This document shows positions 43,619 through 50,097 of a stretch of 55,472 nucleotides of DNA, in pieces. The position numbers and the translations under genes are program-made. The notes beneath the pieces are model-generated. The model did not search any database. It was given only the letters and a program-made list of their open reading frames with translations, and was not told where the DNA came from. Numbering within the stretch: position 1 is the first letter of the stretch; each line of letters begins with the position of its first letter. Source of the DNA: Acidimicrobiales bacterium (GTDB taxonomy: Bacteria; Actinomycetota; Acidimicrobiia; Acidimicrobiales; VFJN01); the NCBI GenBank assembly GCA_035316325.1, contig DATHJB010000107.1, forward strand, positions 1-55,472, written 5' to 3'.

Positions 43619-44638
43619 TCAAGCTTCGAGGTCGAGGGCCTGCTGGTGGGCCGACGCCGCGGCCACGAGCACCTCGTCGCCCGGACCGCCGCCCGTGGGG
43701 CGCTCGGGGTGCAGCCGGTCGCCGACGAGCGCCGCCATCGTGGCGGAGGTGCTCGACCGCAGGGCGTCCAGGTCGTAGCCGCCCTCCAGGAACAGCAGCC
43801 GGCGACCTGGCGGCGCCAGCTCCAGCAGGTCGACGGTGATGTCGGCGTAGTCGCCCGACGACAGCGCCAGGTCGGTCAGGGGGTCGTCGCGGTGGGCGTC
43901 GAACCCGGCGGAGACCAGCAGCCAGTCCGGCTGGATCTCGGTGGCCAGCGGCACCACGACCTCGGCGATCCCCCGCCGGTAGACGTCGCCGGTGGCACCG
44001 GGTGGCACCGGGATGTTCACGGTGGCTCCCCGGCCCACGCCGCTCCCCGTCTCGTCCAGCGACCCGGTGCCCGGCCACAGCGGGCTCTGGTGGAACGACA
44101 CGTAGACCACCCGGGGATCGTCGTAGAACATGGCCTGGGTGCCGTTGCCGTGATGGGCGTCGATGTCGACCACCAGCACGCGGTGGCCCCGCTCGGCCAG
44201 CGCCGCCGCCGTCACCGCCACGTTGTTGAAGAGGCAGAAGCCCATGGCCCGGCCGCTCAGCGCGTGGTGGCCCGGCGGTCGCACGGCGCAGAACGCGGCC
44301 GTGGCCTCGCCGCGGACCAGCTGCTCGCTCGCCTCCAGCCCGGCACCCGCGGCCATCAGCGCGGCATCCCACGAGCCCGGGGCGACGGCGGTGTCGGCGT
44401 CGAGGTGGCCGCCGCCGGCCCGGCAGAAGCGCTCCAGCGCGGCCACGTACTCGGGCGAGTGCACCCGCTCCAGCTCCGCCACCTCGGCCGCCCGGGGCGG
44501 GACGAAGGCCACCTCGCCGTCGAGGCCGGCGTCCAGCACCCCCGCCTCGACCGCCCACAGCCGCTGCGGGCGCTCGGGATGCCCGCGACCGGGATCGTGG
44601 TCGAGGTACGCCGGGTGTGTGACGAACAACACGGTCAT
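43619..44638 (-). CDS. Histone deacetylase superfamily amidohydrolase
   Basis: 339 residues. Zinc-site motifs of the HDAC/acetoin-utilisation family: RPPGHHALSGRAMGFCLFNN, VDIDAHHGNGTQ, and the second Asp in SAGFDAHRDDPL, closing with FLEGGYDLDAL. Bacterial members remove acetyl groups from protein lysines, polyamines or small molecules; the substrate here is unknown. A GNAT-family acyltransferase gene lies on the opposite strand 79 bases away, so an opposed acetylation pair is possible. Confidence 0.93.
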   Translation of the reverse strand: MTVLFVTHPAYLDHDPGRGHPERPQRLWAVEAGVLDAGLDGEVAFVPPRAAEVAELERVHSPEYVAALERFCRAGGGHLDADTAVAPGSWDAALMAAGAGLEASEQLVRGEATAAFCAVRPPGHHALSGRAMGFCLFNNVAVTAAALAERGHRVLVVDIDAHHGNGTQAMFYDDPRVVYVSFHQSPLWPGTGSLDETGSGVGRGATVNIPVPPGATGDVYRRGIAEVVVPLATEIQPDWLLVSAGFDAHRDDPLTDLALSSGDYADITVDLLELAPPGRRLLFLEGGYDLDALRSSTSATMAALVGDRLHPERPTGGGPGDEVLVAAASAHQQALDLEA

Positions 44639-44647
44639 CGTCTCTCG

Positions 44648-44653
44648 ACGCTA
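44648..44653 (-). promoter_or_regulatory. -10 hexamer TAGCGT, leaderless-type
   Basis: Ends 9 bases before the ATG at 44638 of the deacetylase gene. Confidence 0.5.
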
Positions 44654-44702
44654 CCGGGCCACTCTCTGGTGGCTCACCTGTCCCCCTGGTCGGCGGGTTG
44701 CG

Positions 44703-44708
44703 TACGCT
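44703..44708 (+). promoter_or_regulatory. -10 hexamer TACGCT, leaderless-type
   Basis: Ends 8 bases before ATG 44717 of the 14-codon leader, not of the GNAT gene itself. Confidence 0.45.
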
Positions 44709-44716
44709 CGGAGGCG

Positions 44717-44761
44717 ATGCAAGTCGTCGCCGGACTCGCAACGAAGCGGGGACCCAGATGA
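44717..44761 (+). CDS. Putative leader peptide, stop-start coupled to the GNAT gene
   Basis: 14 codons, MQVVAGLATKRGPR, ending in TGA 44759-44761 that overlaps the GNAT ATG at 44758 as ATGA. The leader start lies 8 bases after a TACGCT hexamer, so the transcript would begin at the leader's ATG. Ribosomes terminating here could restart on the GNAT gene, which lacks a strong ribosome binding site. Possible roles are plain coupling or attenuation; the peptide has no run of one amino acid. Confidence 0.4.
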   Translation: MQVVAGLATKRGPR

Positions 44762-45519
44762 GTGCGCTGCGGGTGCCCGCGCCGGTCACCTCGGCCGACG
44801 GGATCCGTCTGACCCCCTGGCGGGCCGAGCCGGCCGTCGTCCACCTGGCCCTCACCGCCACCCGCCGCCAGCCGCTGTCGTCCGACGTGCTCACCCGCGT
44901 CGTCGACGGCCTGCGCCAGCGGGGCATCCGGAGCGTCGTCACCGCGGCGCTGGCGTCGCCCGACCAGCGGGTGTTCGTCGACGCCGGCTTCCACATCGTC
45001 GAGCGCCTCTACCTGCTGCGCCACCGGCTCGACCCGATGCCGCCGCTGCTCCCGATCCCCACCCGCCGGGCGCGGCGCCGCGACCAGGAGCCCGCCCTGG
45101 CCGTCGACCGGGCCGCCTTCCTGCCGTTCTGGCAGATGGACGACGTCGCGCTCAACGAGGCGCTCGCCGCCACCCGGTCGTCACGGCTGCGGGTGATCGA
45201 CGGGCCCGAGGGCGACGTGGTCGCCTACGCCGTCTGCGGCCGCACCGCCTCGCGCGGCTACGTCCAGCGCCTCGCCGTCCACCCCGACCACCAGGGCCTC
45301 GGCTACGGCCGGGCGCTGCTGTTCGACGGTCTCCACTGGCTGGCGCGCTGGGGCGCCCGTGACGCCCTCGTCAACACCCAGGTGGGCAACGAGCGCTCGC
45401 GCACGCTGTACGAGCGGTCGGGCTTCAAGTTGCAGCCGGCGGGCCTGGCGGTGCTGCGACTCGACATCGAGGATCCCGCCCGCCCCGGGCCGCAGTCGCT
45501 CGATACCTTCGGGCCCTGA
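44758..45519 (+). CDS. GNAT family N-acetyltransferase
   Basis: 253 residues. The C-terminal half is a GNAT fold with the acetyl-CoA motif VQRLAVHPDHQGLGYGRALL and NTQVGNERSRTLYERSGF; the N-terminal half is a second, degenerate GNAT-like repeat (VVHLALTATRRQPLSSDVLT, VDAGFHIVERLYLL). RimI-like arrangement; substrate unknown. It is coupled to DUF6049 by a one-base overlap (TGATG) and preceded by a putative leader peptide. A TTG upstream start (44698) is open but less likely. Confidence 0.88.
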   Translation: MSALRVPAPVTSADGIRLTPWRAEPAVVHLALTATRRQPLSSDVLTRVVDGLRQRGIRSVVTAALASPDQRVFVDAGFHIVERLYLLRHRLDPMPPLLPIPTRRARRRDQEPALAVDRAAFLPFWQMDDVALNEALAATRSSRLRVIDGPEGDVVAYAVCGRTASRGYVQRLAVHPDHQGLGYGRALLFDGLHWLARWGARDALVNTQVGNERSRTLYERSGFKLQPAGLAVLRLDIEDPARPGPQSLDTFGP

Positions 45520-47477
45520 TGACCACACGACGCGGGCCCGTCCACGGGCTGGGCTGCCTGGCCGCGGTGCTCGTGCTGGCGGTGACGCTCACGTCAGGCA
45601 CCGCGGGGGCGACGTCGGCCGCCGCGCCACGGGCGCAGGCCACCACCATCCGGCTGCTGGACCAGGCGCCGTGGCAGCGGCTGGGCGACGTCCTCCAGCT
45701 GCGGGTGCAGGTCCAGGGTGCGCCGACCGACGCCACGATCCGGATCGAGCGGCACGGCGCCGTCGACTCCCGCACCGCGTTCGCCGAGACGATCGAGGAC
45801 GACGACGAGCTCGGCAGCGCCGAACGCCAGGTCGACGTGCCGCTCGCGTCGCTGACGCCCGCCGAGGGGGGCGGCGTCACGCTGGCCTACCCGATGGCCG
45901 ACGACCCCGGGCTCGACCGCTTCGGCGTCTACCCGGTGCGGCTCCTCGTGGTCGACGGTGGCGGCACCACCCTCGCCCAGCTCGTCACCTACCTGGTGGT
46001 GCTGCCGGAGGAGGAGTTCCCCCCGCTGTCGGTGGCCGTGCTCATGGAGGTCGGCGGCCCGACCGGCCTCCGACCCGACGGCAGCGTCCCGCCGAACGAC
46101 GAGATCCTGACGGCCTTCGCCTCCCGCACCGAGGTGCTGCAGGGCAGCCCCCTGCCGCTGACCGTGGCGCCGTCGCCCGAGACCCTCGATGCCCTCGGCG
46201 ACATGGGCGACCGCGGCCAGCAGCAGCTCGACGAGCTGCGCACCGCCCTGGCGGATCAGCTGCCGCTGGCCCGTCCCTACGTCGACCTCGACCTCGACGC
46301 CATGGTGTCGGCGAACCTCCTCACGCAGCTCCCGCCCGAGGCCGAAGCCGGCGCCCAGGTGGTGCGCACCCGCTTCGACCTCGAGCCGATCGGCGGCACC
46401 TGGCTCAGCGGGCCGACCCTGGGCGACGCGGCGGCCAAGGCGCTACGCGACGTCGGCGTCCCCTCCGCGGTCGTGCCGGAGAGCGCCATCGCCTCGGTGG
46501 AGGACCTCGACTCCGGCGAGGTGCCGACCGAGCCCGTCGCGCTCGGTGAGGGCGGTCCGCGGGGCTTCGTCGCCGACGAGTCGCTGAGCACCCGGCTCAC
46601 CGGCCAGGAGGGGGCGCTCGACGCCCAGCGCTTCCTGGCCGAGCTGGCCGTGGTGTGGATGACCCGGCCGTCGGTCGAGCGTGGAGTGCTGGTCCGGATC
46701 CCGGAGACCGCCCAGCTCGACGTCGACACCGTCGCCGCGGCGCTCGACGGGCTGGCCATCGGTCCGACCGCGCGGACGGTCACCACCCAGCAGCTGTTCG
46801 ACGACCTGGCGCCGGACGAGGGCGAGGCGGCGCCCACCGCCGAGCTGGCGCCCCACACCGACGCTCCCGACCTGCGGCCGCTGGTCGAGCCCCTGGGCCA
46901 GGCACAGGCCCGCGTCTTCGGGCTGGCCGGCACGCTCGACGACAGCGCGCTCATCGGCTCCCTGCAGCGCTCGCTGCTGATCGCGCTCGGGTCCGACACG
47001 ACGGAGCGGGAGCGGCGGGCCTACATCGGGCGGGTCGACGCCGTCGTCGCCGACATCGCCGACAAGGTCTCGGCCCCCGACGAGTTCACGATCACCCTCA
47101 CCGCCCGCGACGGCACGATCCCGCTCACGCTCACCAACGACACGGGCCAGCCCATCGTCGTGCGTGTCCACCTCGACAGCAGCCAGCTGACGTTCCCCGA
47201 CGGCGCCACGAGGACCGAGGTGCTGGAGCCCGGCACCAAGCGCCTCGACCTCGACGTGCGGACGCGCACGTCGGGCGCGTTCCCACTCGACATCTCCGTC
47301 ACCAGCCCCGACGAGACCATCGAGCTCGACGAGACCACGTTCACGATCCGCTCGACCGCGGTGTCGGGCGCGGGCCTGTTCCTGTCCGCCGGCGCCGGCC
47401 TGTTCCTGTTGATCTGGTGGGCCCGCCACTGGCGCACCGCCAAGCGCTCCCAGCGCCTCGTCGTCGAGAACCGCTGA
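45519..47477 (+). CDS. DUF6049 family secreted, membrane-anchored protein
   Basis: 652 residues. Sec signal at the N-terminus (CLAAVLVLAVTLTSGTAGA, cleavage near 32-36), a long extracellular region, and one C-terminal helix (GAGLFLSAGAGLFLLIWWAR) followed by a basic cytoplasmic tail. Position between the CCA enzyme and the kinase/sigma block matches the Rv3909 locus of mycobacteria (DUF6049). Function unknown; neighbours in other Actinobacteria point to cell-wall assembly. The MurJ gene that usually follows is not here. Confidence 0.87.
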   Translation: MTTRRGPVHGLGCLAAVLVLAVTLTSGTAGATSAAAPRAQATTIRLLDQAPWQRLGDVLQLRVQVQGAPTDATIRIERHGAVDSRTAFAETIEDDDELGSAERQVDVPLASLTPAEGGGVTLAYPMADDPGLDRFGVYPVRLLVVDGGGTTLAQLVTYLVVLPEEEFPPLSVAVLMEVGGPTGLRPDGSVPPNDEILTAFASRTEVLQGSPLPLTVAPSPETLDALGDMGDRGQQQLDELRTALADQLPLARPYVDLDLDAMVSANLLTQLPPEAEAGAQVVRTRFDLEPIGGTWLSGPTLGDAAAKALRDVGVPSAVVPESAIASVEDLDSGEVPTEPVALGEGGPRGFVADESLSTRLTGQEGALDAQRFLAELAVVWMTRPSVERGVLVRIPETAQLDVDTVAAALDGLAIGPTARTVTTQQLFDDLAPDEGEAAPTAELAPHTDAPDLRPLVEPLGQAQARVFGLAGTLDDSALIGSLQRSLLIALGSDTTERERRAYIGRVDAVVADIADKVSAPDEFTITLTARDGTIPLTLTNDTGQPIVVRVHLDSSQLTFPDGATRTEVLEPGTKRLDLDVRTRTSGAFPLDISVTSPDETIELDETTFTIRSTAVSGAGLFLSAGAGLFLLIWWARHWRTAKRSQRLVVENR

Positions 47478-47516: not shown

Positions 47517-48356
47517 ATGCCGGTCCGCATCGTCACCGACTCGTCGTGCGACCTCGACGCAGCCGAGGCCGAGGAGCTGGGCGTCGAGGTCGTCCCTCTC
47601 TCGATCCGCTTCGGCTCGGAGGAGTTCACCGACCGCGTCGACCTCACCGCCGAGGACTTCTACTCGAAGATGGCCGCCAGCGCGGGGCTGCCCGAGACGG
47701 CCGCCCCGTCGGTGGGCGCCTTCGAGCAGGCGTTCCGACGCCAGGCCGACGCCGGGGCCGACGCGGTGCTGTGCATCACGATCTCGTCCAAGCTGTCCGC
47801 CACCATGCAGGCCGCCGAGAACGCCGCCAAGGTCGTCGGCGACGACCTCGACGTGCGGGTGCTCGACTCGCTGTCGGTCACCGCGGGGCTCGGCACCATC
47901 GTCCGCCTGGCTGCCCGGGCTGCGGCCGGCGGCGCCGACGCGGCGACCATCGCCGCCACCGCGGCCGATCTCGCCGGCCGCACCCGTATCGCCGGCACGC
48001 TCGACACGATCGACAACCTCAAGAAGGGTGGCCGCGTCGGCGGTGCCCAGGCCGTGATCGGGTCGCTGCTGTCGATCAAGCCGTTGATCCACTTCGAGGA
48101 CGGCGTCGTCGGCCCTGCGGGCCGGGCACGCACCCGGCGCAAGGCGCTCGAGTGGGTGCGCGACCGGGTCTGGGATCAGCCGTCGGTCGAGGAGCTGGTG
48201 GTCATCCACAGCATGGCGCCCGACGTCGACGACCTGCTCGACCTCCTCGCACCCCGCTACGAGCGCGACCAGATCCCGGTGACCACCATCGGCCCCGTCG
48301 TCGGCACGCACGGCGGTCCCCGCATGCTCGGCGCCACCTGGGTCGACCCCCGCTGA
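47517..48356 (+). CDS. DegV family fatty-acid-binding protein
   Basis: 279 residues. VRIVTDSSCDLDAAEAEELG, VPLSIRFGSEEFTD, ETAAPSVGAFEQAF, CITISSKLSATMQAA, DSLSVTAGLG and KKGGRVGGAQAVIGSLLSIK are DegV family motifs. Characterised members bind fatty acids and can act with fatty-acid kinase FakA as the FakB subunit; a fakA gene is not in this window. It occupies the place where murJ stands in related origin-proximal blocks. Confidence 0.92.
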   Translation: MPVRIVTDSSCDLDAAEAEELGVEVVPLSIRFGSEEFTDRVDLTAEDFYSKMAASAGLPETAAPSVGAFEQAFRRQADAGADAVLCITISSKLSATMQAAENAAKVVGDDLDVRVLDSLSVTAGLGTIVRLAARAAAGGADAATIAATAADLAGRTRIAGTLDTIDNLKKGGRVGGAQAVIGSLLSIKPLIHFEDGVVGPAGRARTRRKALEWVRDRVWDQPSVEELVVIHSMAPDVDDLLDLLAPRYERDQIPVTTIGPVVGTHGGPRMLGATWVDPR

Positions 48357-48393
48357 TCGCCGGGCGCTGACCCTCCCGGGGGGACCGTCCAAC

Positions 48394-48399
48394 TAGGGT
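48394..48399 (+). promoter_or_regulatory. -10 hexamer TAGGGT, leaderless-type
   Basis: Ends 9 bases before GTG 48409 of the Ser/Thr kinase gene. Confidence 0.5.
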
Positions 48400-48408
48400 G
48401 GGCACTCC

Positions 48409-50097
48409 GTGGCCGTAACGCCTCCTCCTACCGGTTCGTCGCCCGCAGCCAGTGTGGCCTCCGGCACGGTGCTCACCGGCCGATACCGGCTGGACGAGCA
48501 ACTCGCGTCGGGCGGCATGGCTCAGGTATGGCGGGGCACCGACGAGGTGCTCCGTCGCTCCGTCGCGGTCAAGATCCTCCACCCCCACCTGGCGGCCGAC
48601 GACACGTTCGTGGCGCGGTTCCGCCAGGAGGCCATCGCCGTCGCCAAGCTGTCGCACCCGGCGATCGTCAGCGTCTACGACACGTGCAACGACAACGGCG
48701 TCCAGGCGATCGTGATGGAGCTCGTCCGGGGCGAGACACTGCGGCAGCGCCTCGACGCCGGGCCGCTCGACCCGTGGATCTCCGCCAACGTCGCCGCCCA
48801 CGTGGCCGGAGCGCTCGACGTCGCCCACGCCGCCGGGCTGGTGCACCGCGACATCAAGCCCGCCAACATCCTCATCTCCGAGGACGGCCGGGTGAAGGTG
48901 GGCGACTTCGGCATCGCCAAGGCCGCCGAGGAGTCCGCCGACCTCACCCAGGAAGGCTCCTTCATCGGCACCGCCAAGTACCTGGCGCCCGAGCAGGTGG
49001 AGGGCGCTGCGGTCGACGGCCGCACCGACCTCTACAGCCTCGGGATCGTGCTCTACGAGATGTTGTGCGGCCACGTGCCGTTCGAGGGCGACACGTCGTC
49101 GGCCACGGCCCTGGCCCGCCTCCACCAGGAACCGCGGCGCCCGCGCCTGGTGCGGGCCGCGATCCCGGCTGAGCTCGAGGCGATCACGATGACGCTGCTC
49201 GAGCGCGAGCCCGAGCGCCGCTACCCCACCGCCACGCACGCCCGGGCCGCGCTGATCGAGGCCGGTGCCAGCGACGCGCCCTCGGTGGTCGACACGTCGA
49301 GCACCGCCACTGTCTCCGCGATGCCGGCCGCGCCGCCGTCCTACCCACCGACGGGGCCGACCACGTCCACCGTGTCGCCCCCGCAGGGGCCCATCCGCCG
49401 GTTCGACCAGACCCAGGTCGGCCACCGCGACCGCGAGCGCCACTGGCTCGTGCCCACCCTGCTGGTTGTGCTGGCGGCGATCTCGATCGTGATCGCCGCG
49501 GTGCTCATCAACCGATCGGGCAGCGCCCTGTTCGGCGACAACGACCCAGCCGGCGGCGACGAGACCGCCGCGACCGAGCCTGTGGCGCAGCCGATCCTCT
49601 CCGCCCAGGACTTCGACCCTCTGGGCGATCGCGTCGAGTACCACCAGTCGGTGGGCGCGGTGTTCGACGGCGACCCCGCCACCTTCTGGCAGACCGAGCA
49701 CTACGGCGACTACACGCAGCTCTTCCGCAAGGACGGCGTCGGCATCTACGTCGTCCTCAACGACCTCGCAGACCTCCGGCAGCTGAAGCTCACGACCGAC
49801 AGCAGCGACTGGGTCATGGACGTCTTCGTGGCGGACGAGCCTCCGGCAGACCCGTTGAGCGCCGCCGGCGATGCCGCGATGGCCGCCTGGAGCGAACCGG
49901 TGGCGCACGTCGAGCCCGGCAAGGCCGACGAGAACCTCATCGACCTCCCCGACGGCACCCAGGGCAAGGCGGTGCTGCTGTGGTTCACCGGCGTCGGCAG
50001 CGAGCCGGTCGTCGGCGGCGAGTGGGCAGGCAAGCACATCATGACGGTCAACGAGCTCCAGGTCCTCGGCGACAGCGACAGCGGCGGCGAGGGGTAG
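48409..50097 (+). CDS. Membrane Ser/Thr protein kinase with discoidin-like ectodomain
   Basis: 562 residues. Hanks-type kinase (about 21-285): Lys55 in VAVKIL, HRDIKPANIL with Asp148, and Asp166 in GDFGIAKA, so it looks catalytically competent. A Pro/Thr linker, one membrane helix (about 347-368) and an extracellular domain (about 395-560) resembling F5/8 type C modules follow: VFDGDPATFWQTEHYGD, LKLTTDSSDWVMDVFV. In mycobacteria, Rv3910 at this locus fuses MurJ to a pseudokinase and a similar domain; here the kinase stands alone and intact. The ligand could be a cell-wall glycan. GTG 48409 follows TAGGGT by 9 bases. Confidence 0.92.
   Translation: MAVTPPPTGSSPAASVASGTVLTGRYRLDEQLASGGMAQVWRGTDEVLRRSVAVKILHPHLAADDTFVARFRQEAIAVAKLSHPAIVSVYDTCNDNGVQAIVMELVRGETLRQRLDAGPLDPWISANVAAHVAGALDVAHAAGLVHRDIKPANILISEDGRVKVGDFGIAKAAEESADLTQEGSFIGTAKYLAPEQVEGAAVDGRTDLYSLGIVLYEMLCGHVPFEGDTSSATALARLHQEPRRPRLVRAAIPAELEAITMTLLEREPERRYPTATHARAALIEAGASDAPSVVDTSSTATVSAMPAAPPSYPPTGPTTSTVSPPQGPIRRFDQTQVGHRDRERHWLVPTLLVVLAAISIVIAAVLINRSGSALFGDNDPAGGDETAATEPVAQPILSAQDFDPLGDRVEYHQSVGAVFDGDPATFWQTEHYGDYTQLFRKDGVGIYVVLNDLADLRQLKLTTDSSDWVMDVFVADEPPADPLSAAGDAAMAAWSEPVAHVEPGKADENLIDLPDGTQGKAVLLWFTGVGSEPVVGGEWAGKHIMTVNELQVLGDSDSGGEG

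Follow-up and report, generated by a model that had tools for sequence, protein, structure and literature searches.

The window, a stretch of 55,472 nt from an Acidimicrobiales contig, carries a GNAT acetyltransferase gene that is preceded by a 14-codon open reading frame (the leader ORF) and followed by a DUF6049 gene and by DegV and Ser/Thr kinase genes (Table 1); in other actinobacteria, the position after DUF6049 is often occupied by MurJ. The GNAT start at 44758 is plausible, as the N-terminus (MSALRV...IRLTPWR) matches, in a by-eye alignment, those of relatives such as MPGLRVVRWGTERLRVGPWR. An upstream TTG (44698) was considered as the GNAT start and rejected, because it precedes the predicted transcript start and the N-termini of relatives align at 44758. 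The overlap between GNAT and the next gene was -4 (NTGA) in 21 of 30 loci and -1 in four, including the window; when ten partial downstream proteins were tested, three reached DUF6049 and seven had no family match. The divergent histone-deacetylase-family (HDAC) gene is encoded on the minus strand, starting at 44638, and leaves a gap of about 119 nt, so that the promoter must sit in this gap or inside the divergent gene; transcription from far upstream is unlikely because of this gap, the divergent gene filling the region leftwards of 44638. The HDAC-family gene, too, looks leaderless, since its ATG stands 9 nt behind a TAGCGT.

The box TACGCT is separated by an 8-nt spacer (CGGAGGCG) from the ATG (44717-44719) that opens MQVVAGLATKRGPR, and the TGA of this frame (44759-44761) overlaps the GNAT ATG (44758-44760) as ATGA. 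When the coordinates were re-read, the box, the 8-base spacing, the 14-codon frame and the overlap described in an earlier note on this DNA proved exact. No sigma-70 consensus pair was found.

Table 1. Features at the GNAT locus of the window (direct relatives: GNAT start itself placed behind the box)
Feature	Position	Strand	Remarks
-10-like box TACGCT	44703..44708	+	TANNCT forms dominate direct relatives; TACGCT itself is the box in 6/82
Leader ORF, 14 codons + TGA, MQVVAGLATKRGPR	44717..44761	+	Spacing peak; predicted transcript 5' end within 0-2 nt of 44717
GGGGA, possible weak Shine-Dalgarno (SD) site of GNAT within the leader	44748..44752	+	Duplex energy
ATGA stop/start overlap	44758..44761	+	NTGA with boxed leader in 22/190 genomes
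GNAT acetyltransferase gene	44758..45519	+	PF00583, E 2.4e-14
DUF6049 gene	45519..47477	+	PF19516; start overlaps GNAT stop as TGATG (45517-45521)
Divergent histone-deacetylase-family gene	43619..44638	-	PF00850; TAGCGT at 44648-44653
DegV and Ser/Thr kinase genes	47517-50097		After DUF6049

The GNAT protein was found in all seven genomes of the family and in 190 of 298 genomes of the order. Upstream regions were read in two batches, comprising 149 of the 190 GNAT-positive genomes and 41 further genomes from family searches around leader-bearing genomes, which gives 190 genomes with one locus each; 41 of the 190 GNAT-positive genomes had been absent from the first reading, some of which entered later via the family searches, two genomes from these searches (G313, G303) were left out of the reading, and a partial match (L270) was counted among the 190 as 'none'. 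Loci were classed by a TANNNT box followed 5-11 nt later by ATG or GTG: in the direct class this is the GNAT start itself, and in the leader class it opens an out-of-frame ORF (9-34 codons in the set ending as NTGA). The direct class accounts for 99 of the 190 loci, and 22, among them the window and the two genomes most closely related to it, have a boxed leader whose end overlaps the GNAT start exactly as NTGA; the rate for leaders is biased since the second batch was picked around leader cases. Dinucleotide shuffles (500 rounds) yielded on average 3.4 direct loci (maximum 9) and 0.28 leaders (maximum 3). Two of the 22 are doubtful, L105 having an alternative GTG at +2 and L128 possibly carrying a homopolymer frameshift; the remaining loci comprise 19 with another out-of-frame ORF and 50 with no such start. 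The first batch alone contained 15 leader and 82 direct loci among 149, against shuffle means of 0.2 and 3.4.

Six altered (mock) boxes gave 5-13 direct loci and 0-7 leaders among the 190 loci; the seven leaders were obtained with the reversed mock box TNNNAT, so part of the signal is independent of the box. With the spacing widened to 0-30 nt, direct starts and leader starts shared a peak at 6-11 nt, as expected if both sit at the transcript 5' end, and the 8 nt of the window fall inside this peak, which makes its leader ATG a predicted leaderless start. That the start codon lies at leaderless spacing had already been claimed, and the claim is borne out by a box-to-start distance that leader starts share with the GNAT starts of direct relatives. 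The divergent HDAC gene, used as a control, was found at 40 of 149 loci, a number limited by the text motif used for finding it; 35 were direct and none had a leader. Within a 411-kb sample of the window genome, whose genes were called by a simple script based on GC by codon position, the pattern occurred in three of 263 testable genes (GNAT being one, and one of the three being also direct) and is therefore uncommon there. On contig C229 of this genome (G000; L176:9755), a further gene has TATGGT, 6 nt, a 15-codon ORF and an ATGA overlap.

Exact NTGA endings might arise by chance, as 29 of 82 direct GNAT starts already carry NTGA (an A follows the start). When random leaders, restricted to the 15 lengths observed at that stage, were set in front of real GNAT starts, 12.8% ended as NTGA, 26% stopped earlier and 61% ran past. 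By comparison, NTGA endings were present in 22 of the 41 loci with out-of-frame leaders (binomial p 5e-10, shared ancestry ignored), or in 20 of 39 when the doubtful L105 and L128 are omitted (p 8e-9, shared ancestry again ignored); the proposed coupling into GNAT through the stop/start overlap is thus backed by leader endings far commoner than chance. The other 19 leaders end at -14 (seven), -10 (two), -7, -1, +1 and +32 (one each), or stop far away or run past. The -14 leaders (L051, L158, L296, L306, L307, L310 and L311; one f3 genus and a neighbour) stop 14 nt inside the GNAT gene, within the conserved N-terminus at its 5' end, and may represent a second overlap type or a coincidence. A leader frame broken in a relative that retains GNAT was named in the earlier note as a finding against coupling, and one relative fits: in L297 (G329), the GTG at the leaderless position is followed immediately by TAG (a start-stop leader) and GNAT is kept, while further down the stop of a 5-codon ORF overlaps the GNAT start as GTGA (both by eye).

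The GGGGA motif lies 5 nt before the GNAT ATG, and the 17-nt stretch holding it forms an anti-SD duplex of -8.0 kcal/mol, a strength reached by 11.7% of random sites and typical of ordinary coupled operon junctions in the same genome (mean -8.35 kcal/mol). GNAT might, on this evidence, be an ordinary gene with a short leader: the ribosome would bind straight to GGGGA, and the 14-codon ORF would exist only because a start codon happens to lie close to the 5' end. Some relatives (L283, L287, L039, L042) do resemble leadered genes, having either an SD-like GAAGGAG or a long gap without a leader. However, the recurrence of exact NTGA endings far above the null and the persistence of the same architecture almost without SD in the nearest relatives (G005, -2.7; G006, -1.8 kcal/mol) argue against this explanation, which we regard as unlikely. 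GNAT starts behind leaders reached -6 kcal/mol or below in five of 22 cases, versus 13 of 17 ordinary NTGA junctions of the window genome (Fisher p 0.001). The supposition that GNAT has no binding site of its own is therefore only partly right for the window, whereas most relatives do lack such a site; if GNAT is reached by reinitiation from the leader, the restart in the window, one of the five SD-bearing loci, may be SD-assisted.

In the 21 distinct leaders (338 codons), G+C content does not vary with codon position in the manner of a coding signature (GC3-GC2 0.009, null p 0.39), and no shared run or conserved regulatory codons are seen; their peptides are barely conserved and are unrelated between lineages, while the coupled architecture persists. 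The missing coding signature agrees with a relay in which translating counts and not the product. A gene preceded by a short translated leader has the usual build of an attenuator, and a regulatory role had been suggested for this one. However, leader sequence and length vary by lineage, a scan of 44560-44900 for Rho-independent terminator-like sites gave none, no Rfam match was obtained at E up to 1, and the stop is pinned to the GNAT start, which leaves no space between them for an attenuator. As neither codon bias nor the terminator and RNA-family checks pointed to sensing or attenuation, a regulatory peptide was dropped as the main reading, and control of GNAT by an attenuator or stalling peptide appears very improbable. 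Fusion of leader and GNAT into a longer protein by frameshift or stop read-through, for which the M. tuberculosis PPE2 uORF with its reported minor fusion product offers a precedent (PMC11260477), is more improbable still, since in direct relatives the N-termini of GNAT line up from the protein's own start (by eye) and the leader peptides are unrelated among lineages.

In a tree of 93 GNAT proteins, the window forms a clade with G005 and G006 (SH-aLRT support 96), and four genomes of another genus, all direct, are sister to it (support 85 for the join). Conservation of leader length and overlap among relatives had been named as a check of the proposal; within this clade the overlap is conserved (always NTGA) but the length is not (14 codons in the window, 33 in G005 and 32 in G006). 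Leaders are present in seven families. On the tree, at least nine changes (unpolarised) are required between the direct and the leader state, and 21 changes for all four classes versus 41.6 when shuffled. Both forms occur within one genus, where G063 is of the direct type and the 10-codon leader of G103 terminates as GTGA; within another, G271 and G315 retain a 26-codon leader with some residues changed. By this tree, the leader at GNAT has been gained, lost or altered repeatedly across the order.

The box, its spacing, the frames, the overlap, their recurrence and a leader without coding signature are read directly from the sequences, and from them we infer a transcript start, translation of the leader and reinitiation: the 14-codon ORF is probably a leaderless relay from which ribosomes reach GNAT through termination-reinitiation. 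The transcript would begin at A44717 or at most two bases away, and translation of the ORF would be leaderless; after terminating at the UGA at 44759, the ribosome would back up one base and restart at the overlapping GNAT AUG, perhaps aided by GGGGA at 44748, and DUF6049 would be reached through the second stop/start overlap, TGATG. The leader would thus act as a relay whose peptide is itself irrelevant, and in relatives the equivalent promoter would give GNAT directly as a leaderless gene. The odds appear even for a wider proposal, in which the promoter fixes the first start codon, lineages alternate between GNAT and a disposable relay ORF in that place, and Acidimicrobiales-like actinobacteria generally use the relay as a fast-evolving frame-adaptor where genes are poor in SD sites. 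The evolutionary record at the GNAT locus is unusually clear, and, with a single orthologous gene occurring naturally in direct, relay and leadered form, the cost or gain of the relay could be tested by exchanging upstream regions. Starts of the relay type may be misplaced or overlooked by gene callers.

No report of this GNAT leader locus was found in the literature searched. Among sources combining 'leaderless' and 'Acidimicrobi', the accessible part of PMC10783764 mentions the class in an anti-SD table only. The accessible part of PMC9094748 has nothing further on coupling; a review of coupling (PMC12548453) mentions short ORFs that deliver ribosomes. The 5'-terminal uAUGs of E. coli, e.g., that of ptrB (PMC4965119), likewise place an AUG at the 5' end before a gene and there affect expression, but the downstream genes have SD sites and, at ptrB, part of the effect does not depend on translation of the uORF. 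M. tuberculosis PPE2 is reported to need translation of a uORF, mainly through termination-reinitiation (PMC11260477), and this uORF, like the GNAT leader, is out of frame and overlaps the downstream gene as AUGA; however, it has its own SD site and is accompanied by a B12 riboswitch, whereas the GNAT leader locus is without an Rfam match. The closest resemblance is to the RTGA-'coupled' leaderless small ORFs of M. tuberculosis and M. smegmatis (23 of 220 coupled), of which in some cases the coupled architecture alone and not the peptide is conserved (Shell et al. 2015; PMC4633059). Both have an RTG start at the leaderless position (predicted here), a TGA sharing the downstream start as RTGA and an architecture that is kept while the peptide is not, and the 14 codons of the window leader fit the 5-50 codon range of the mycobacterial class. 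Transcription starts are mapped in the mycobacterial class, whereas those at the Acidimicrobiales locus are predicted from sequence; the order is also different, and here a single gene has changed many times between the direct and the relay form. Most likely, the GNAT leader belongs to this class known from mycobacteria and extends coupled leaderless small ORFs to another actinobacterial order.
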